Below, piece by piece: positions 1 to 23,082 of a stretch of DNA of 23,082 nucleotides. Below the pieces are notes generated by a model that was not told the origin of the DNA, did no database searches, and saw nothing but the letters and a program-made list of their open reading frames with translations. Both the position numbers and the translations under genes were made by a program. The DNA lies in the IMG/VR virus record IMGVR_UViG_3300010368_000117, positions 1 to 23,082 of that record. The stretch is one strand, 5' to 3'. The stretch is from a virus. How positions within the stretch are numbered: position 1 is the first letter of the stretch; each line of letters starts with the position of its first letter.

Positions 1-408
1 TACACTGGATCCAATAGATTTAAACTTTGCTCCAACATTACCAACCCAGGCACTAAATTTAGCACCTAAACTTTTAAGGCCAGCTGACATCTTATCTATT
101 CCCACGACAGCACCGAGGGAGTTAAGACCCAGCGCCAGAATACCTGCTGATAATCCTGCCAGAAGACCAGCAACACCAAGTCCACCTAAAAGACCAAGTC
201 CACCACCGTCATCTTTTTCAGGACTTGGTGTCGCAGACGCAGGCATAACCTCATCTCGAGGTGCCATCTCCCGTATCATTTCCATCATTGCTAGTTTGTC
301 TTTAGCAATCTGTTGGAAAAATTCCACAAAGCGATCATCAACACTGTCGAGTCTAGTGTTGGTACCTTTCTGTTGTTTTACTAAATCATCAAGAGTTGTT
401 GCCGCCAT
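1..408 (-). CDS. Tape-measure-like tail protein, N-terminal part (runs off left edge)
   Basis: The frame starts at an ATG complementary to 406-408 and stays open for 136 codons to the window edge, so only the N-terminus is visible. Residues 1-50 are charged and probably helical or coiled-coil. A short Pro/Ser/acidic linker follows (about 55-68), then a Gly/Leu/Ala-rich hydrophobic stretch (about 68-104) that looks membrane-compatible, then an amphipathic segment with regularly placed small and basic residues. This mix is common in phage tape-measure proteins, which set tail length and line the tube lumen. The gene lies immediately downstream of a gp26-like protein with a probable -1 frameshift extension, and its start overlaps the end of that extension by 20 bases, as tape-measure genes do in many phages. 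An AAGAGG ribosome-binding site lies upstream. The tape-measure call rests on context and composition, not on a recognised domain. Confidence 0.6.
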   Translation of the reverse strand, partial: MAATTLDDLVKQQKGTNTRLDSVDDRFVEFFQQIAKDKLAMMEMIREMAPRDEVMPASATPSPEKDDGGGLGLLGGLGVAGLLAGLSAGILALGLNSLGAVVGIDKMSAGLKSLGAKFSAWVGNVGAKFKSIGSSV

Positions 409-583
409 TTGCTTTCTTTGCCTCTTCTTCTTCCTGCAATGCTTGCATAAGCATTATTAAATGTATCTCTCTCTCCCAAGGCATCATCATATCCAATTCT
501 GTTAATGTATACTTGTGATGTCTGGTGAGCAAAAAATTCGTTCTGAAATAATTTGCTAGGTCTTCATGAGAGAGACATACTAA
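389..583 (-). CDS. -1 frameshift extension of the gp26-like protein (64 codons)
   Basis: In the -1 frame relative to the gp26-like gene, 64 codons run from the T-run at 583 to a TGA at 389-391. The peptide is LVCLSHEDLANYFRTNF..., then ..ELDMMMPWEREIHLIML.., then a Glu-rich helical tail. The PWERE segment preceded by acidic and hydrophobic residues resembles short C-terminal domains of tail-assembly chaperones made by frameshifting. The frame has no ATG before the Met triplet near codon 32. The only nearby ATG (576-578) is in another frame and stops after four codons, and a TTG start near codon 17 would lose the beginning. If read through by -1 slippage it would give a fusion of 230 + 64 = 294 residues spanning 389-1272. 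An alternative is independent initiation at an internal TTG or ATG to make a very short protein. Confidence 0.7.
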   Translation of the reverse strand, partial: LVCLSHEDLANYFRTNFLLTRHHKYTLTELDMMMPWEREIHLIMLMQALQEEEEAKKANGGNNS

Positions 584-1272
584 AAAAAACTTTGCATTCC
601 TTTGATTTCTATGTTATTATTATATGCACATCCAACACAATCAAAAACAACATTTTGTTTAACTTGTGGCATATCTTCTAAAAATTCCGCAAGTTTCTCG
701 AACTGTTGTTTAGTCATAGACTCTAGAAAGTCGCGAACACTTTCATCAGACTCTTCACTAATATCAATCCTCTCTTCTTCTGTAAGAACCGCCTCTATAG
801 AGTTTGTTAATATAGCAAATCCAAGTTCATCTTCACTGACATTTAGATCGATCGATCCATAGCTCGGATACTTCATCTCTACAGAGATCGTATCATCAAT
901 CTTAATGATCGAGATCTTCTTTGCTTTGCTACATTTAACTTCTTCTAGATCGATTACTAATTCGTTTGGTTCTCCACATTCGCTACAGTTCAGATTGATA
1001 GAAACGTTCTCACCAACAGACTTCGATCGAATCTTAATAAAGAGATATTCAAGATCGAATGTTGTTAAACTGTCTTTCGGCACATCTTCGTGAATACATG
1101 CATTAACAGTATCGATAACTGCATTCATAATCTGATTAATGTCACCAGACTCAGATGCCATTAACAATATCTTCTCTTCTCTCACCAAGTAGGGTCTAAA
1201 ATTTACTTTCTTGCCTGTAGATGGTATTATCATCTCATATTTTGGAGATTCGTTTAACTTGGGTAATGCCAT
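580..1272 (-). CDS. gp26: gp26-like baseplate hub / tail-assembly protein (T4_baseplate family)
   Basis: The 230-residue product resembles the T4 gp26 family (208 residues in T4), a factor needed for baseplate hub assembly. The N-terminus has the conserved pattern of a short beta segment (KYEMIIPSTGKKVNFRPYLV) followed by a helix with REEKILLMA. Two CxxC pairs, C96/C99 and C212/C215, flank the C-terminal half and probably form a zinc-ribbon-like site; C114 is a further cysteine. An acidic helical stretch fills about 148-203. The gene ends in TTT TTT TAG with a likely -1 frameshift into a further 64 residues, which would make it the short form of a chaperone pair acting on the tape-measure protein encoded next. 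No late promoter is obvious just upstream, and the ribosome-binding site is weak (TGAGAA), so translation may depend on the upstream minus-strand transcript. Confidence 0.8.
   Translation of the reverse strand: MALPKLNESPKYEMIIPSTGKKVNFRPYLVREEKILLMASESGDINQIMNAVIDTVNACIHEDVPKDSLTTFDLEYLFIKIRSKSVGENVSINLNCSECGEPNELVIDLEEVKCSKAKKISIIKIDDTISVEMKYPSYGSIDLNVSEDELGFAILTNSIEAVLTEEERIDISEESDESVRDFLESMTKQQFEKLAEFLEDMPQVKQNVVFDCVGCAYNNNIEIKGMQSFF
583..589 (-). promoter_or_regulatory. Candidate programmed -1 frameshift site, T TTT TTT before TAG
   Basis: On the minus strand the gp26-like frame ends AGT TTT TTT TAG, so a perfect X XXY YYZ heptamer (T TTT TTT) sits immediately 5' of the stop codon at 580-582. 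Slipping one base back reads TTT TTT TTA GTA and enters the 64-codon extension. An AAAGGA sequence (598-603) lies 8 bases upstream of the heptamer, which could act as an internal Shine-Dalgarno stimulator as in dnaX. Downstream, ATGTCT (573-578) can pair with AGACAT near 525-530 and a small GTCT/AGAC hairpin is possible, but neither looks strong. P2 uses a closely related T TTT TTG slip in its E/E+E' chaperone genes. Confidence 0.68.
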
Positions 1273-5074: not shown

Positions 5075-6430
5075 ATGGCGCAGAATCAGTCTCAATTTGC
5101 TATTCTTGAAGCATCAATTATTTCTTCATCGACCACAGATGAAGATAAACTTATTGATATAAAGAATAGCATAATAGAATTGCAGTTTTGGGAACATATC
5201 TCGAAACCTTATATCGATGCTAGAATGGTTTTCATTGATGACTTTGGTCTAAGAGAATTGATGGGCATTCAAGGTACAGAGAGAATACGAATTGTTATAG
5301 GTAACGCAGAAGCACCTGAAGAACCTAGCATCATCAAATACTTCTTTTTCTCTAAGATTAACGAAGTGCAGAATTTGAACGAAAGATCTCAGATGTTGTC
5401 AGTTGATCTAGTCGAGGAGCAGGTATATGTTGATGCCATCAAGCAGTTTAGCAGATCGTATACTAGCACTCTAGAAGATATCATAATCGATGTTTGTAAT
5501 AGAGATCTGAATAAAACCGTTACAACTAATGACTTTGCTGGTTCAGTTCAGGGTGTAAGAAAGATTATCGTTCCTTACATGAGTCCTATCGAAACAATTC
5601 AGTGGTTAAAAGATAGAGCGACAACAAAGCTGGGCGCACCCATTTACTTAACCTCAAGCCTATATAACAACGATTTAAAATTAAGCGATCTTGACAATCT
5701 TCTACGGGCGAATGTCTTTAATGATAAGTTGCCTGCTAGATATTCTAAATCGCTGCAGGGCAGCGAAGATCCTCTAAAGACATATTATGAAATCATTTCA
5801 TATAAGAGTGTTGGAAATGAGAATGCTCTTGCACTATATGAGCAAGGAATAATAGGTTCTCTCTATGCTAATCTTGATGCTGGTACAGGAAACTCTGTTG
5901 ATAGTCATGTAACGATTCGCGACATTATTGACGAGTTCTACACTAACGGGCTTATTTCTCCAGAATCAATTCAATCAGTATTTGATCCGTCTTTGTTAAT
6001 TGACGGTAGGTTATCTGATGAATATAATTCATTAGCAATACATCAAGTCACTTCAAGTGGCACCTACAATCAGTTTAATAGTTATCATGATGAAGCAACA
6101 GTCCTAGATGCAGATAATAATATACAAGAGTCGCGTCTAAAAGTCAAGAACAAAATCATTCGTGGTATATTAAAGAAGAATATGCTAGATATTGGTATGA
6201 ACGGTGGTTTATTCTTCCAGGGTAAAATTGATGTCGGAAATAAGATGCGTTTGCTGTTCTTGAGTGCCGATGTTGAGGGAGATCAGAAAGATGTTGTTGA
6301 ACAAATCGACATGAAAAGTTCTGGTGATTATCTCATTCTTGCGATCAATCATAAATTGACTAGCGAAAAGCATGTTGCTCAATTAAGACTTACAAAACTT
6401 GCTGATTTATCGAGCGACTTTAAAATATGA
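5075..6430 (+). CDS. gp27: gp27-like baseplate hub protein
   Basis: The 451-residue product has the N-terminal beta architecture of gp27/VgrG-N hub proteins. LIDIKNSIIELQFWEHISKP is followed by YIDARMVFIDDFGLRELM, a GTERIRIVIG strand, and a helical segment (STLEDIIIDVCNRDL) leading to IVPYMSPIETIQWLKDRATT, the conserved feature of these hubs. The C-terminal part has an OB/barrel-like run (GLFFQGKIDVGNKMRLLFLS). T4 gp27 is 391 residues and forms the trimeric ring joining gp5 to the tube. The assignment is supported by its place directly before the gp5-like gene, with which it overlaps (ATGA at 6427). Identity to T4 is expected to be low. Confidence 0.75.
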   Translation: MAQNQSQFAILEASIISSSTTDEDKLIDIKNSIIELQFWEHISKPYIDARMVFIDDFGLRELMGIQGTERIRIVIGNAEAPEEPSIIKYFFFSKINEVQNLNERSQMLSVDLVEEQVYVDAIKQFSRSYTSTLEDIIIDVCNRDLNKTVTTNDFAGSVQGVRKIIVPYMSPIETIQWLKDRATTKLGAPIYLTSSLYNNDLKLSDLDNLLRANVFNDKLPARYSKSLQGSEDPLKTYYEIISYKSVGNENALALYEQGIIGSLYANLDAGTGNSVDSHVTIRDIIDEFYTNGLISPESIQSVFDPSLLIDGRLSDEYNSLAIHQVTSSGTYNQFNSYHDEATVLDADNNIQESRLKVKNKIIRGILKKNMLDIGMNGGLFFQGKIDVGNKMRLLFLSADVEGDQKDVVEQIDMKSSGDYLILAINHKLTSEKHVAQLRLTKLADLSSDFKI

Positions 6431-7308
6431 ACATATTAAGACCTATCTCAAAAGAGTTCTATGGGGACGATGTTCGTTGGTTCTTTGGCACTGTCATCAA
6501 TGCACATCCTCCTTCTGGTCTAGAGGGTCGTGTTAAGGTTCGTATCAATGGAGTTCACAGTCCAAGTACTGTCGACATTCCTGAGAAAGATTTACCATGG
6601 GCACAAGTTCTAATTCCGACTACTGAAGGTGGCGCATCAGGTATTGGAAAAATACCACAACTAGTGCAAGGCGCGTTCGTGTTTGGAATTTTTATGGACG
6701 GTGCAACATCTCAGTTGCCTCTTGTTTTAGGTTCTCTGCCGCGCACAGAGTATCCCTCTACTACACAAACTCAGCGTAGAGTATCTGGTGTGAATGCAGT
6801 AGACTATGAGAAGAGTCGATTGCAGAATATTATTATTTCAGCATTTAAAGATGATGCTGATCCTAATGCTCGGGTTACACTTCGTAGACAGCAGTCAATG
6901 AAGTTCTTTATTGATAATGGATATTCATTGATTCATTCTGCCGCTATAACAGGCGCTCTTCAAGCACAGTCTAGTTTTTTAATCTATGACGAAAAGTGGA
7001 ATGATGTTAATTATAATGATAAATTAGGTATCGCAGGATGGAGAAAAGTAAACATAGCAAATAGTCGTTACAATAATCTACTTAAATTTACGAGACAATT
7101 TCAACCAAACTCTGACTGGAAACTATTCTCTATACAGATACAATTTGTACTTTATGAATTACGCAATCAGTTCAACCAAGTAAATAGTCGATTGATTGCT
7201 ACTACTAATATAAAAGATGCCAGTGAAATTGTTAATAGATATTACTTAAAAAATACTAATACTAGCGATAGATTTGCGAAAAGTATATATGACGAGGTGC
7301 TTGATTAA
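6427..7308 (+). CDS. gp5: gp5-like hub protein: OB-fold plus degenerate tail-lysozyme domain
   Basis: Residues 15-107 match the gp5 OB domain: WFFGTVINAHPPSGLEGRVKVRI, LPWAQVLIPTTEGGASGIGK, GAFVFGIFMDG, then LPLVLGSLP. Residues about 150-285 resemble the phage tail lysozyme family (Phage_lysozyme2): a helix before AAITGALQAQSSF, LGIAGWRK, LLKFTRQF..DWKLFSIQIQFVLYELRN, and a final RYY helix. In that family the first motif normally reads like NLQAESGF, with Glu catalytic; here Q181 (CAG) takes that place, and GIAGW replaces the usual GIAQW. The domain may therefore be inactive. Unlike T4 gp5 (575 residues), the beta-helix is absent and is encoded two genes downstream. Start and stop overlap both neighbours. 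Confidence 0.78.
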   Translation: MNILRPISKEFYGDDVRWFFGTVINAHPPSGLEGRVKVRINGVHSPSTVDIPEKDLPWAQVLIPTTEGGASGIGKIPQLVQGAFVFGIFMDGATSQLPLVLGSLPRTEYPSTTQTQRRVSGVNAVDYEKSRLQNIIISAFKDDADPNARVTLRRQQSMKFFIDNGYSLIHSAAITGALQAQSSFLIYDEKWNDVNYNDKLGIAGWRKVNIANSRYNNLLKFTRQFQPNSDWKLFSIQIQFVLYELRNQFNQVNSRLIATTNIKDASEIVNRYYLKNTNTSDRFAKSIYDEVLD

Positions 7309-9221
7309 TGGCAAAAGAAAATGCGGCAAAACTTCAGGATGATGTTAAAACGGCAGTAACATCGATTGACACTGCTCCGTTAACAGATGCAGCAAATCAA
7401 TCAACAGAATCTTTTAAGGCAGCAAACGAAAGCGTTACAGGTTCTATTGCAGGTCAAATTCAAGGGGGTGTTGAAGGACTTACTCAGAAATTTGACGCGT
7501 TCTCCGATAAGTTAAGCGATACGACAGTCGAAGGATTAATGACTGACGGAGTAGAAAGTCTCAAGAATATGGGAACGGACTTTGTTAATGGTGCAATTGC
7601 CGGACTAGCATCTAAATTTGCGTCTAGTGTTACTGTTCAGTTCAGTGAACCAGATTCGAATGGCATTGTATATCCTATCGCATCGTCATTGCAATCTGAG
7701 GGCGGCGTCGACGCGACGGTCGGAACCATACTTAGGTTAATCACCGGACTAGGAATTGATGCTGGTAGTCTACAGAAGACTCTTATCGATGCAAGTCCAA
7801 AGGGTTTACTAGATGCAGGTAAAGGTCTTCTTGTTGATAAGATGGGAGCATTTGACGGTGCTAGTGCAATTACAGCATTAACAGAAGCTGCAACGGAATC
7901 TGTACTCACCGTACTAGAAGATGCTACTAGTGGTGTTCTGAATAATATTAAAGATGCTGGTGGTAATACTCTTAATAGTATAGGCAAGAACATCACAAAT
8001 ATTCCTGCTAGTTGGGACGCTAATGGTGCGGTTACTTCGGTTACGTCAGTTACAGGATCAGGTGATAATTTCGACACAGCGTTCGGTGATGCTGTAAGCA
8101 ACATACGCAACGGTCTAGTTGATCTTCGTGCTACCATATCTGATGATAATAATATTAAAGAAAATCTTGCTGGCGCGCTCTCTGACGTTGAGAATCTTTC
8201 GGGCGGCAAAGATGGTAAGACTGTGCAGAGTGCGGTTGGCAATACTGTTAATTATCAGGCATTGTACGAGAAGAAGGGAAGCGAGTATCGTTCACTCGTT
8301 CAGACAAAGTTAGCAAAAAATTCACAACGTGGTATTATTCAGGGTCTTAACATAGAAACTTTAACTACTGTTCGTAAGCAGATTAAAGCATTCGCCCCCG
8401 CTCTTGTTGATGCAGATATCAATCGTGTTATTGAGTTATGTCAAGGTGATGCCGATGAGTTTTCGCAGGCAGTACGATTAGTATTTTCTGCCAACAAGCA
8501 ATCATACTCAGCGATAAGAACATTCTTAAAGAGTATTGATACGACAGTATTTAATGCGACAAGACCTCAATTGACAGATATTGTATTTGAAGAACCTTAT
8601 GTTATTGGTTCATTCGATAAGACTTGGAATAAAGGTACAGGAGATCCTGTATTTCCTTACATATCCTCACTCGAAGAATTGCTCGCCGACATTAAGAATA
8701 TTAAGCGTGAAGTAACAGAAGTTGTTGTGCATTGGACAGAGACTCATACTAATAAAAATATAGGCTCTGAAGAGATTAATAAATACCATCGTGATGTAGG
8801 TCTAGATGGTATTGGTTATCATTACGTAATACGGCGAGATGGTTCTCTTCAGCGAGGAAGACCAGTTAGTCTCGAAGGACAACATTCTCCAATTAATAGG
8901 CATGATCTTCGTAGTATAGGAATAGTGTTCGTTGGTGGTATAAACGTGCCTTCAGGAACACCTAATTCAGAGCAATTCTTGTCTGTACAATCGTTGACCA
9001 GAAGTCAGATTAATACATTCGACCATTTCTGTCGTTCTATCTACTCTATATTTCCAGGAGCACAGATAGTAGGGCATTCTAATATTGATGAGGATGAGTT
9101 TGATCCTGGTTTTGATGTTACGAGTTATGTAAGAGCCAACTTTGGTAAGAAGAGTAAGTTCACTGATCCTCTTACTCAAGAACCATTCACCCTAATTCAG
9201 TTGTTAACAGATGACAAATAA
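7308..9221 (+). CDS. Hub-associated N-acetylmuramoyl-L-alanine amidase with long N-terminal region
   Basis: Residues 1-430 are Ala/Ser/Gly/Asp-rich and largely helical, with no recognised domain; they look like a structural or tape-like tail segment. Residues about 465-612 form an amidase_2 (AmpD/T7 lysozyme-type) domain that cleaves the bond between MurNAc and L-Ala in peptidoglycan. The zinc ligands appear as H475 in VVVHWTETH, H590 in VGHSN, and D599 in DPGFDV; GIGYHYVIRRDGSLQRGRP with Y504 and GQHS with H526 are also conserved. E597 occupies the position where AmpD and T7 lysozyme have a catalytic Lys two residues before the last ligand. The gene lies between the gp5-like and spike genes and overlaps both, so the enzyme is probably carried on the baseplate hub to open the cell wall during infection, possibly taking over from the altered lysozyme domain upstream. 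Confidence 0.82.
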   Translation: MAKENAAKLQDDVKTAVTSIDTAPLTDAANQSTESFKAANESVTGSIAGQIQGGVEGLTQKFDAFSDKLSDTTVEGLMTDGVESLKNMGTDFVNGAIAGLASKFASSVTVQFSEPDSNGIVYPIASSLQSEGGVDATVGTILRLITGLGIDAGSLQKTLIDASPKGLLDAGKGLLVDKMGAFDGASAITALTEAATESVLTVLEDATSGVLNNIKDAGGNTLNSIGKNITNIPASWDANGAVTSVTSVTGSGDNFDTAFGDAVSNIRNGLVDLRATISDDNNIKENLAGALSDVENLSGGKDGKTVQSAVGNTVNYQALYEKKGSEYRSLVQTKLAKNSQRGIIQGLNIETLTTVRKQIKAFAPALVDADINRVIELCQGDADEFSQAVRLVFSANKQSYSAIRTFLKSIDTTVFNATRPQLTDIVFEEPYVIGSFDKTWNKGTGDPVFPYISSLEELLADIKNIKREVTEVVVHWTETHTNKNIGSEEINKYHRDVGLDGIGYHYVIRRDGSLQRGRPVSLEGQHSPINRHDLRSIGIVFVGGINVPSGTPNSEQFLSVQSLTRSQINTFDHFCRSIYSIFPGAQIVGHSNIDEDEFDPGFDVTSYVRANFGKKSKFTDPLTQEPFTLIQLLTDDK

Positions 9222-10665
9222 AGTAGACGATTTAGATAGCAGAATACTTGCGAGCGGAGAAGGCGCTGACGATACTATTGGCGTACCTATAGCTGGGTTT
9301 GTAGATCCGTCCGGTGAATATCCTAATCGTGAGTACTTCTTTGGTTCTAGTGTTAACAAGGCAGCGAAAGGAGAAAAAATAAATAATCTTAGTATTGGCG
9401 GAGGCGACTACGGTGTCTCTATTGATATTCCAACACAAAAACCTTCGCAGTATCCTTATAATCAAGTTCAAGAAACACAATCCGGTCATGCAATAGAAAT
9501 AGACGACACCCCAGGCGGTGAGCGAATTTTAATCAAGCATAGAACAGGTGCTGGAGTAGAGCTACGAGCAGACGGAACTGTTGTTATCGTATCCCTCAAT
9601 CAGAAAATAGAGGTAACAGGTGGTGATCACACCACAATTATTGAAGGAGAAGGCAATCTTGTCTATAAAGGCAACCTTAATCTTACTGTTAGTGGTGATT
9701 ATAATGTCGATGTTGGGGGCAATTATAATCTCAACGTCGCTGGTGACAAAATTGAAAAAATTAAAGGACGACATACAAAAACTGTAGATCGTGATCAGAA
9801 CTATACGATTCGTGGTGCACGAGGTACTCAAGTCGTCGGCATGAACACAGAAACATTACTAGACGATCACAATGTTATTGTAGCAGGTAAGCAGAATAAT
9901 TTTGTACAGGGAAATATAGAGTTATTATCGGGTTCATCATTAATTACTACTGCTGTTGGCGAATGGGTTGCCGCGTCATCGACTGCTAACATTACAGCAC
10001 GACACGTTAGTATAATTGGTCACAAAGGAACTATTGGTGGTCCACTCGTTGATTATTACGGTAAATCATATGGTGGATTTCCTGCTGGTGTAACGAATCT
10101 TGCGACATTCTATGGCACATTAGTAGGTAAAGCGGCAGACGCAATTCGTGCCGATTATACTATGTTCGCATCTATTTCTGAATTCTCAGCTACATCAGCA
10201 ATGTCACTTGTATCGGGTGTATTAGGACCTGTAACTGTTACACCTCCAGTGCCGGTGCCAGGAATCATGCCGTTCATACCTATTCCTCCGACTGCGCCTA
10301 TTCCTAATCCAATGATTGTCGAATTGCAATTATCTACAAGTAACTATGGTATCCGTAACGTATCGGTTGATCCTGCACTGAAAGATAAGATTAGTAAGTC
10401 TGACGACTACAAGGACTTATTCAACTTTGATCCTACCATACATGAGATACGATCTAAATTACGGGATCCAAGTAACTTTAATAATGGCGGTTTTACTAGT
10501 TATCTTGTTGCAGAAGGAAAACTCAATAAAGACTTCAAGAAGAATATTCCAAAGAACATAGGTCGTTCTGCTAATAAGAAAGGAACCGTTCGATTTGGAA
10601 TTAATATATTAGGTAACAATCCTGCTGATACTCGTAGCAAACGCTTTAAGGTGAATACAAAATGA
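9211..10665 (+). CDS. gp5-C/VgrG-like beta-helix spike protein
   Basis: The 484-residue product has a central run (about 95-275) of short beta segments. SGHAIEIDDTPGGERILIKH and GVELRADGTVVIV are followed by repeated VSGDYNVDVGGNYNLNVAGD-type units, the hallmark of the trimeric beta-helix in T4 gp5 C-terminus and VgrG spikes. A Gly/Ala-rich region follows (about 285-338), then a Pro-rich linker (about 344-368). The C-terminal domain of about 115 residues, with SKLRDPSNFNNGGFTSYLV, has no function I recognise. No PAAR tip motif was seen. In T4 the beta-helix is the C-terminal third of gp5; here it is a separate gene. The start ATG overlaps the amidase stop by 11 bases. Confidence 0.8.
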   Translation: MTNKVDDLDSRILASGEGADDTIGVPIAGFVDPSGEYPNREYFFGSSVNKAAKGEKINNLSIGGGDYGVSIDIPTQKPSQYPYNQVQETQSGHAIEIDDTPGGERILIKHRTGAGVELRADGTVVIVSLNQKIEVTGGDHTTIIEGEGNLVYKGNLNLTVSGDYNVDVGGNYNLNVAGDKIEKIKGRHTKTVDRDQNYTIRGARGTQVVGMNTETLLDDHNVIVAGKQNNFVQGNIELLSGSSLITTAVGEWVAASSTANITARHVSIIGHKGTIGGPLVDYYGKSYGGFPAGVTNLATFYGTLVGKAADAIRADYTMFASISEFSATSAMSLVSGVLGPVTVTPPVPVPGIMPFIPIPPTAPIPNPMIVELQLSTSNYGIRNVSVDPALKDKISKSDDYKDLFNFDPTIHEIRSKLRDPSNFNNGGFTSYLVAEGKLNKDFKKNIPKNIGRSANKKGTVRFGINILGNNPADTRSKRFKVNTK

Positions 10666-20975: not shown

Positions 20976-23082
20976 ATGTCTAGACCGCTCAAACATCTTG
21001 GCTCTGGAGCACTTCAAGAACTAGCTATTCTAGATGTGGACTATGTTGCTTATAAAGCAGGACTGCATCTCGGTCGAATTTCTTCGTCTGATGCTTCTGC
21101 ACTAACGTTGGTGTCAGGCGGTGATACTGTAGGAGAATTCGGGGATTCTTATTATGAGAGTTCTGTAGGAGCTGTGCCTGGAACTTATTGGTCAGTAACA
21201 TTTAATGCTGAATTAATATCAGATCCTGAAACTGGTGTTCACACAACTGTATTCACACAACAAGACGAACTTCCTTCTCCTCTTTACATTGGCGACACTC
21301 TTAATGTTGTAGTTAATGGCGATGCATTTACTGGATTCGAAGAGATTGGTTTCGAACTTTCGTTAGATGGTAGTGCATCATATACTGTTGATGATGTTAG
21401 GACTTCTCCTACTTCTAATACAACTGAAAATACAAGAGTAGAGTGGGAAGACTTTGTAAATTCCGAAGGTCTTCTAGGCACATACTCTGCTGAATTTGAT
21501 ATAACAGTTACTCAATCTGGTCTTTTGAATGCTACCCTAACCGTCAACTCAACTGATCGTGATAATGTTGCAAATCCAACATCTGATATTAGCATTGTAT
21601 TTCCTACAGTAGATGTTGAAGCTGCTCTGCCTCCAGTTGCTACAGTCACCTCTACACTACTTTACCAGAATACTCAAGCACAGAAAGCAATTGATACTAA
21701 TAATATTCTAAAGAAGAATCCTGTATTCTGGGATAGAAATCAGGCGCTGCCTGGCATCAAAGAAATGAGTGATGCAGAATTGGATGCATTTACTGAAGTT
21801 CTTGTTGCTAAGATTGTTGCGAACGAGTTGCCGGGTTCTTTCAGATTAAACGCAAACAGCCCGGGCGCAGGTTGGGTTGAATTTATCCCCGCTGCATTTG
21901 TCGACACTCGTGGTGACGGCACTATTATCAGCTATTCTATATGGGTTAAACAGACGGGTGTTGCGCCTACTACAGTAAGACCATTGTATATTGATCGAAT
22001 TGCTGGTCAGTATAATGGATTAAAAGAATACAATGATGCTCAGATCGAATTTACTTTTGGCGAGAGAGTGAAGAAGGCGATCGACACAACAGGTATCGGT
22101 AAATATCAATTACGATCTTCTGCTCAAGGCGCACCAACTGCACCAGGAACTTGGGTCGCTCGAGGCAGTGCAGTTGATACACGTCTCACATACGTATATG
22201 ATCTTGGTTATGATGTTGGTTCACAATATACAGGAGAATATGAAGAAAGTTATACGGGAGCTTACACTCCAACTTATGATAGAGAATTCTTAGCCAACTA
22301 TAATCAAACATACATTGGGGATTATCTAACAGACTATGCTCAGAATTATATTGACGAGTTCAATGTCGACTTAGACTATGTAGGCGAGTACATCTCTCAA
22401 TTCTCAGGTAACTTTGCTGCAACATATGATAGTCAAGACTATGATGCTCAATTTTCAGCAGACTTTATCTCGTCTTACGTTAGCCAATTCAGTGAAGGTT
22501 ATCAAAGTGATTATCAAGGTATTGAATACTTAGGTTTAGAATACATTTCAGATTATGCCTCAGAATACGAGAGTGTATATACTTCGGAGTATACTGGCGA
22601 CTATGAAGGTATTGTTTATCAGAAAGATTATATTGCCGATTACTTGGGCAGCTTTGTTGGTTCTTATGAAGGTAGTTTCGCTGAGACCTACGATGGTCCA
22701 GGTTATATTGCTGGCTTTATTTCACTATATACTGGCGAATACGAAGGCGCATTTTCAGAAAACTTCGGAAGACGATTCGAAAGCACTATATTATACGCAG
22801 TAGAATACGGTTCAACATATATCGGCGATTATGGGAGTTCGTTCAGTGTTTCATTCCTAGATGCCTACGAGGGAGCAGATTATAATTCTCAATTCTCTAT
22901 AAACTATTCTACCGTTTATGGAAGTGATTATCTAGTAGAATTTTCTTCTGCCTATGATTCTGTAGTATATGATACTGCCTTTGCAACAACATATATTGGA
23001 GACTACGAAGGATCTTTTTCACTGCAATTTATAAATGAATTTGATGCTGGCAGCTATGTAGGCGACTACATTAGTCAATATA
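20976..23082 (+). CDS. Tail fibre-like protein with aromatic four-residue repeats (runs off right edge)
   Basis: Starting at the ATG at 20976, the frame is open for 702 codons to the window end. The first residues (MSRPLKHLGSGALQEL) match the N-terminal type I associate with baseplate-attached fibre proteins of marine T4-like phages. Residues about 50-230 are beta-rich and acidic with an Ig-like feel (strands around YWSVTFNAELI and AEFDITVTQSGLLNATLTV). Residues 240-400 include AQKAIDTNNILKKNPVFWDR and a SPGAGWVEFIPAAFVDTRGD segment. From about residue 406 (22191) onward the sequence becomes a long array in which nearly every fourth residue is Tyr or Phe, with Gly/Ser/Ala, Asp/Glu and aliphatic residues between. 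An internal methionine-free stretch and no break support a single gene. A receptor-binding or adhesion role is inferred. Confidence 0.8.
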   Translation, partial: MSRPLKHLGSGALQELAILDVDYVAYKAGLHLGRISSSDASALTLVSGGDTVGEFGDSYYESSVGAVPGTYWSVTFNAELISDPETGVHTTVFTQQDELPSPLYIGDTLNVVVNGDAFTGFEEIGFELSLDGSASYTVDDVRTSPTSNTTENTRVEWEDFVNSEGLLGTYSAEFDITVTQSGLLNATLTVNSTDRDNVANPTSDISIVFPTVDVEAALPPVATVTSTLLYQNTQAQKAIDTNNILKKNPVFWDRNQALPGIKEMSDAELDAFTEVLVAKIVANELPGSFRLNANSPGAGWVEFIPAAFVDTRGDGTIISYSIWVKQTGVAPTTVRPLYIDRIAGQYNGLKEYNDAQIEFTFGERVKKAIDTTGIGKYQLRSSAQGAPTAPGTWVARGSAVDTRLTYVYDLGYDVGSQYTGEYEESYTGAYTPTYDREFLANYNQTYIGDYLTDYAQNYIDEFNVDLDYVGEYISQFSGNFAATYDSQDYDAQFSADFISSYVSQFSEGYQSDYQGIEYLGLEYISDYASEYESVYTSEYTGDYEGIVYQKDYIADYLGSFVGSYEGSFAETYDGPGYIAGFISLYTGEYEGAFSENFGRRFESTILYAVEYGSTYIGDYGSSFSVSFLDAYEGADYNSQFSINYSTVYGSDYLVEFSSAYDSVVYDTAFATTYIGDYEGSFSLQFINEFDAGSYVGDYISQY
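22191..23082 (+). repeat. Aromatic tetrapeptide repeat array within the fibre gene
   Basis: About 297 residues can be written as about 75 four-residue units such as YTGE, YIGD, DYEG and SQFS, nearly all holding one Tyr or Phe. The aromatic register shifts only when single residues are inserted or lost. At DNA level the units are not identical: IGDY is written ATCGGCGATTAT and ATTGGAGACTAC, so the pattern is kept by protein-level selection rather than by recent duplication. The array continues past the window end. Confidence 0.85.

Follow-up and report, generated by a model that had tools for sequence, protein, structure and literature searches.

Phages lambda and P2 each produce a short and a long tail assembly chaperone (G/GT and E/E+E', respectively) by a -1 slip ahead of the tape-measure gene, the frameshift site of P2 being T TTT TTG. 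The tail assembly chaperones (TACs) of T4-like phages were reportedly identified by Vladimirov, Gautam and Davidson (Virology 566:9-15, 2022), who are said to have found a frameshift in several T4-like groups and separate genes 26 and 51 in T4. PMC12846349 credits to these authors the poly-T -1 signals of the TAC-N genes of T4-like phages, and describes a -1 frameshift at the TAC locus of the Vandenendeviridae/Andersonviridae (Pseudomonas phage Adele), where a GTTTTT motif is conserved close to the TAC-N end. The locus studied here resembles lambda G/GT and P2 E/E+E' in its gene layout, and it resembles the locus of Adele, which belongs to other phage families, in its predicted -1 frameshift. 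With the T4-like gp26/gp51 TACs it shares the family, the place before the tape-measure gene and the poly-T -1 site, and as far as that work is reported nothing essential differs. The original prediction, which knew of no description of such a scheme in T4-like phages, was therefore mistaken on this point: the scheme was already proposed for them in 2022, and our locus is a new, divergent example of it.

The stretch of DNA analyzed (hereafter the window, 23,082 nucleotides) carries on the minus strand, at 1272-580, a gp26-like gene encoding a protein of 230 amino acids (MALPKLNESPKYE...GMQSFF*), which we interpret as the short tail assembly chaperone, TAC-N. The protein matches PF12322 (T4_baseplate, E=1.7e-56), which assigns it to the gp26 family, as well as phrog_150 (E=2.1e-56, positions 5-232 of the 282 in the profile). 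Its AF2 model has a mean pLDDT of 85, and its identity to gp26 of named phages is at most 39.5% (tblastn). The gene ends AGT TTT TTT TAG, as first read from the sequence, with a T TTT TTT heptamer at 589-583 (minus strand) that is decoded in the 0 frame as TTT TTT and followed by the TAG stop at 582-580. The run of eight T is the sole homopolymer of at least eight nucleotides in the window, and an in-phase T TTT TTN is found at 3 of the 7,537 codon positions of the window genes. The AAAGGA announced 8 nucleotides upstream of the heptamer is located at 603-598.

Past the end of gp26 the minus strand can be read on in the -1 frame for 64 codons (583-389, LVCLSHEDLANYFRTNFLLTRHHKYTLTELDMMMPWEREI...GGNNS*), up to a TGA at 391-389, beyond the ATG of the next gene at 408, in agreement with the original prediction. 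This extension matches phrog_634 (gp51, "baseplate hub assembly catalyst") with E=1.7e-22, and we refer to it as TAC-C. It also matches the C-terminus of phrog_150 (positions 236-278 of 282), which indicates that some phrog_150 members hold both domains in one chain. Its structural model contains three predicted helices (mean pLDDT 79). Reading through the junction would give a predicted fusion, TAC-NC, encoded at 1272-389 on the minus strand and made of 294 residues, 230 from gp26 and 64 from the -1 frame.

The gene that begins at 408 on the minus strand overlaps the extension by 20 nucleotides and is cut by the window end after 136 amino acids (408-1). This fragment has no significant family match in Pfam or PHROG, and we therefore base its tape-measure identity on its position and on its relatives: the closest of these have homologous downstream ORFs of about 430-500 amino acids, and in HTVC008M the gene at the corresponding place is named "putative tail tape measure". 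Elsewhere in the window, on the plus strand, Gp5-like functions seem to be split over three consecutive ORFs (6427-10665), unlike the single gp5 of T4: an ORF with Gp5 OB and Phage_lysozyme2 domains (6427-7308), a 637-amino-acid protein whose C-terminal part is an Amidase_2 domain (7308-9221) and a protein with the Gp5 trimerisation beta-helix (9211-10665). A long plus-strand ORF at 20976-23081, also cut by the window end, contains degenerate Y-rich repeats (SEYTGDYEG, GSYEGSFAETYDGPGYIAGF); it has no Pfam match and no tandem repeat was called in its DNA, and it is probably a tail fibre gene.

A tblastn search over phage records detected gp26 in 674 records and the extension in 494. The frame relation between the two was surveyed on fetched loci, that is IMG/VR contigs and named phages. 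The extension lies in the -1 frame at all 168 loci with both domains and in the +1 frame at none, which rejects a +1 frameshift; the sole chain with both domains in the same frame is T4 gp51. An in-phase T TTT TTN heptamer is present in 121 of the 123 distinct gp26/extension junctions, against 0.04% of codon positions (13/29,649) in the remaining gp26 gene sequence. In 118 of these junctions it is T TTT TTT, T TTT TTC or T TTT TTA and lies no more than 13 nucleotides from the gp26 stop, and at three loci (L075, L118 and L152) it is placed further upstream because the 0 frame continues for a few codons. Among the 127 distinct relatives, 57 have six T followed by C and 17 have six T followed by A, and these keep the same frame offset as the window. 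Since both the last letter of the heptamer (T, C or A) and its distance to the stop (0, 3 or a few more bases) vary, what is conserved is a slippery heptamer in codon phase and not one inherited string. It extends from the Kyanoviridae (phages of Synechococcus, Prochlorococcus, Pelagibacter and Methylophilales) to phiM12, pf16, Moby, LG08, Aeromonas phage P19 and Vibrio phage K491, and distant relatives (L172-L198) show the same arrangement. The expectation that gp26 homologues would share a slippery run and a start-less -1 frame is thus generally borne out, the exceptions being the Vibrio phages K483 and YC, the only two of the 123 junctions that lack the heptamer.

We next consider the elements that may stimulate slippage. 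The AAAGGA motif inside gp26 (603-598, minus strand) is Shine-Dalgarno (SD)-like and forms an anti-SD duplex of -5.6 kcal/mol in the window. Across the family the anti-SD binding energy is strongest 5 to 10 nucleotides upstream of the heptamer, where its mean is -6.5 kcal/mol versus -4.9 kcal/mol when codons are shuffled synonymously (z about -17; this value ignores relatedness and hence overstates independence, as the 127 loci are related). These sequence comparisons give good support to an SD-like stimulator conserved beyond synonymous expectation. Downstream, a candidate stem would pair AUGUCU (578-573, minus strand), which starts 4 nucleotides after the heptamer, with AGACAU (523-518, minus strand). 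Compared with synonymous shuffles, nucleotides 0-90 of the extension form more stable folds (mean z -1.85 across the 127 related loci), an effect that weakens to a mean z of -0.30 at nucleotides 90-165, and the 84-nucleotide stretch of the window folds slightly better than its shuffles (z -1.06). There is one compensatory change: at a pair that is C-G in 18 of 20 sequences the window has U-A, the result of two silent substitutions (TGC to TGT and AGG to AGA). Codon choice at the stem arms is biased: Arg is written AGG in 17 of 20 relatives, against 10 of 128 Arg codons in the rest of gp26, and Cys is written TGC in 17 of 18 cases, against 25 of 124 elsewhere. A covariation shuffle test of the clade stem was not significant. 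With the codon bias in favor, the covariation shuffles giving no support and the fold of the window being weak, we regard a downstream stem in the window's clade as suggestive.

The first ATG of the window extension is codon 31 (counted from 0), within the conserved core, which agrees with the prediction that no ATG lies near the start of the -1 frame; the earliest NTG, at codon 17, is a TTG that lacks an SD, and in the window we found no start codon ahead of the -1 domain that is plausible and has a ribosome-binding site. Ninety-two of the 127 distinct loci have no ATG before extension codon 17, that is until past a conserved block. The coding signal points the same way: the first 19 extension codons, which lie 5' of most possible starts, have a pN/pS of 0.27 when read in the -1 frame, against 1.00 and 1.68 for the 0 and +1 frames, and purifying selection is thus confined to the -1 frame. 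GenBank records start "gp51" at differing codons or omit it. Together, the start-site, coding and annotation tests indicate that in most of these phages the C-domain is reached from gp26 rather than self-started. For the window itself an independent gp51 start was rejected, as there is no SD and a conserved block lies 5' of any start. The cyanophage records of DSL-LC03 (L069), S-WAM1 (L089) and ACG-2014d (L087) carry no gene at all over the gp51 domain.

The reading that competes most directly with a fusion is that the -1 frame holds a small gene in its own right, gp51, translated from an internal start. The majority of GenBank records annotate such a gene, among them P-SSM2, P-SSM4, phiM12 and HTVC008M, the first ATG falls at extension codon 2 or 3 in 24 of the 127 loci, and an overlapping TAATG is found in the Vibrio phages YC, K483 and K491 and in Pseudoalteromonas phage XG4. 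However, start positions are not conserved among relatives, an SD-like sequence precedes the first ATG, GTG or TTG in just 9 of 121 loci and is missing from every potential start that the window offers ahead of its conserved core, several records call no gene there, and a separate gene leaves both the in-phase heptamer and the SD-like site unexplained. We consider this reading very improbable. The TAATG junctions take two forms. In Vibrio phage YC (Ackermannviridae; L082:2630-2675) the gp26 stop overlaps an ATG in the frame of the C-domain and no heptamer is present, and in Vibrio phage K483 (L080:2640-2685) a TAATG likewise stands in place of the heptamer. Vibrio phage K491 (L084) and Pseudoalteromonas phage XG4 (L083) have heptamer and TAATG together. 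Viral contig scans with the divergent gp26 of K483 and K491 as queries found no relatives. Because YC and K483 have the TAATG and no heptamer, frameshifting is not shared by every member of the wider family, and coupled reinitiation may produce the C-domain in some lineages.

The same fusion could also arise by normal translation if the polymerase, slipping at the eight T/A pairs, added a U to some of the mRNAs. The run of eight T in the window's clade has a length at which such slippage is conceivable, but the polymerase would be expected to slip poorly at the shorter T6C and T6A runs of 57 and 17 of the 127 relatives, and the heptamer stays in codon phase, with the SD-like element at a distance relevant to the ribosome; transcriptional slippage is, in our estimation, slightly less credible still. 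A sequencing or assembly indel that split one fused gene (with nine T) was rejected and has a negligible chance of being right, for although homopolymers are error-prone and T4 gp51 is a genuine single-frame fusion, the same offset recurs at 168 loci that include named isolate genomes, it is found with the non-homopolymer T6C and T6A heptamers, and a near-identical separate contig (L002; identity 100% in gp26 and 98.5% in the downstream gene) carries the same T run.

In T4 the two chains are distributed differently. T4 gp26 (208 amino acids) matches phrog_150 over 14-235, whereas T4 gp51 (249 amino acids) matches it in a single frame over 13-280 of 282 and matches phrog_634 in addition. By hhalign the N-domain of T4 gp51 aligns with the gp26 family (E=4.5e-9) and its C-domain with the extension family (E=2e-4, probability 46%). 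The Phe-Phe of T4 gp26 is written TTC TTT, meaning that the heptamer is lost, as expected after frameshifting was lost. These profile matches and the lost heptamer indicate that T4 encodes the two forms as two genes, gp26 being the short form and gp51 the long form with the same C-domain as the window's fusion, whereas the window phage and its relatives would use one gene and a frameshift. Genes 26 and 51 of T4 are divergently oriented neighbours (L071:5803-7229). Beyond the T4-like phages, the phage-tail structure matched by the predicted gp26 model among PDB structures is HK97 gp13 (2OB9), at weak Foldseek scores (E about 1-5, probability 0.41/0.21, TMt 0.42/0.47); the model also matches gp26 family members in a viral structure library, and a PDB sequence search with gp26 gave no match. 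As the match to a solved TAC is weak, we infer the tail-assembly role from position, homology and the two-form architecture.

In all, we estimate at about 0.92 the probability that the TAC gene of this marine T4-like phage is read in two ways, as a short gp26-like protein and as a -1 frameshifted fusion with the gp51 domain. The comparison of sequences strongly supports this mechanism through the frame, the heptamer, selection in the -1 frame, the lack of a start site, the SD-like stimulator and the same-frame gp51 of T4, and every comparative test run supported the original prediction of a gp26-gp51 fusion made by -1 frameshift before the tape-measure gene. Most ribosomes would terminate at the TAG that follows TTT TTT, yielding the 230-residue TAC-N, and a minority, stalled on T TTT TTT, would slip back one base and read 64 codons more, aided by the upstream AAAGGA and perhaps by the downstream stem. 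The product of the slip would be the 294-residue TAC-NC with the helical "gp51" domain at its C-terminus. By analogy with lambda G/GT, the mixture of short and long forms would cover the tape-measure protein, whose gene lies directly downstream, and keep it soluble, and the C-domain of the long form would contact or recruit tail-tube subunits; slippage itself, the ratio of the two products and their part in tail assembly are inferred.

As the core idea was published in 2022, the gain here lies in breadth and detail. What may be undescribed is how widely relatives were surveyed, the statistics on the stimulators, the candidate stem and the pair of Vibrio phages in which an overlapping TAATG replaces the heptamer. 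We tentatively propose, as a reading that is possible but somewhat doubtful, that the T4-like TAC family has switched among three routes to the long form: a T TTT TTN frameshift tuned by a conserved SD-like site upstream, with a stem formed by unusual AGG and TGC codons in the window's clade; gene duplication with loss of the heptamer, as in T4; and an overlapping TAATG start where the heptamer has been lost, as in Vibrio phages YC and K483. Within this joint reading the stimulators and the third route are perhaps undescribed. If gp26 and gp51 are one frameshifted chaperone, many annotations are wrong or missing, since gp51 is called with arbitrary starts or omitted, and the "baseplate hub" gp26 and "hub assembly catalyst" gp51 of hundreds of marine phage genomes would become one frameshifted tail assembly chaperone. 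The gp26/gp51 step of T4 would thereby become testable as chaperoning of the tape measure.
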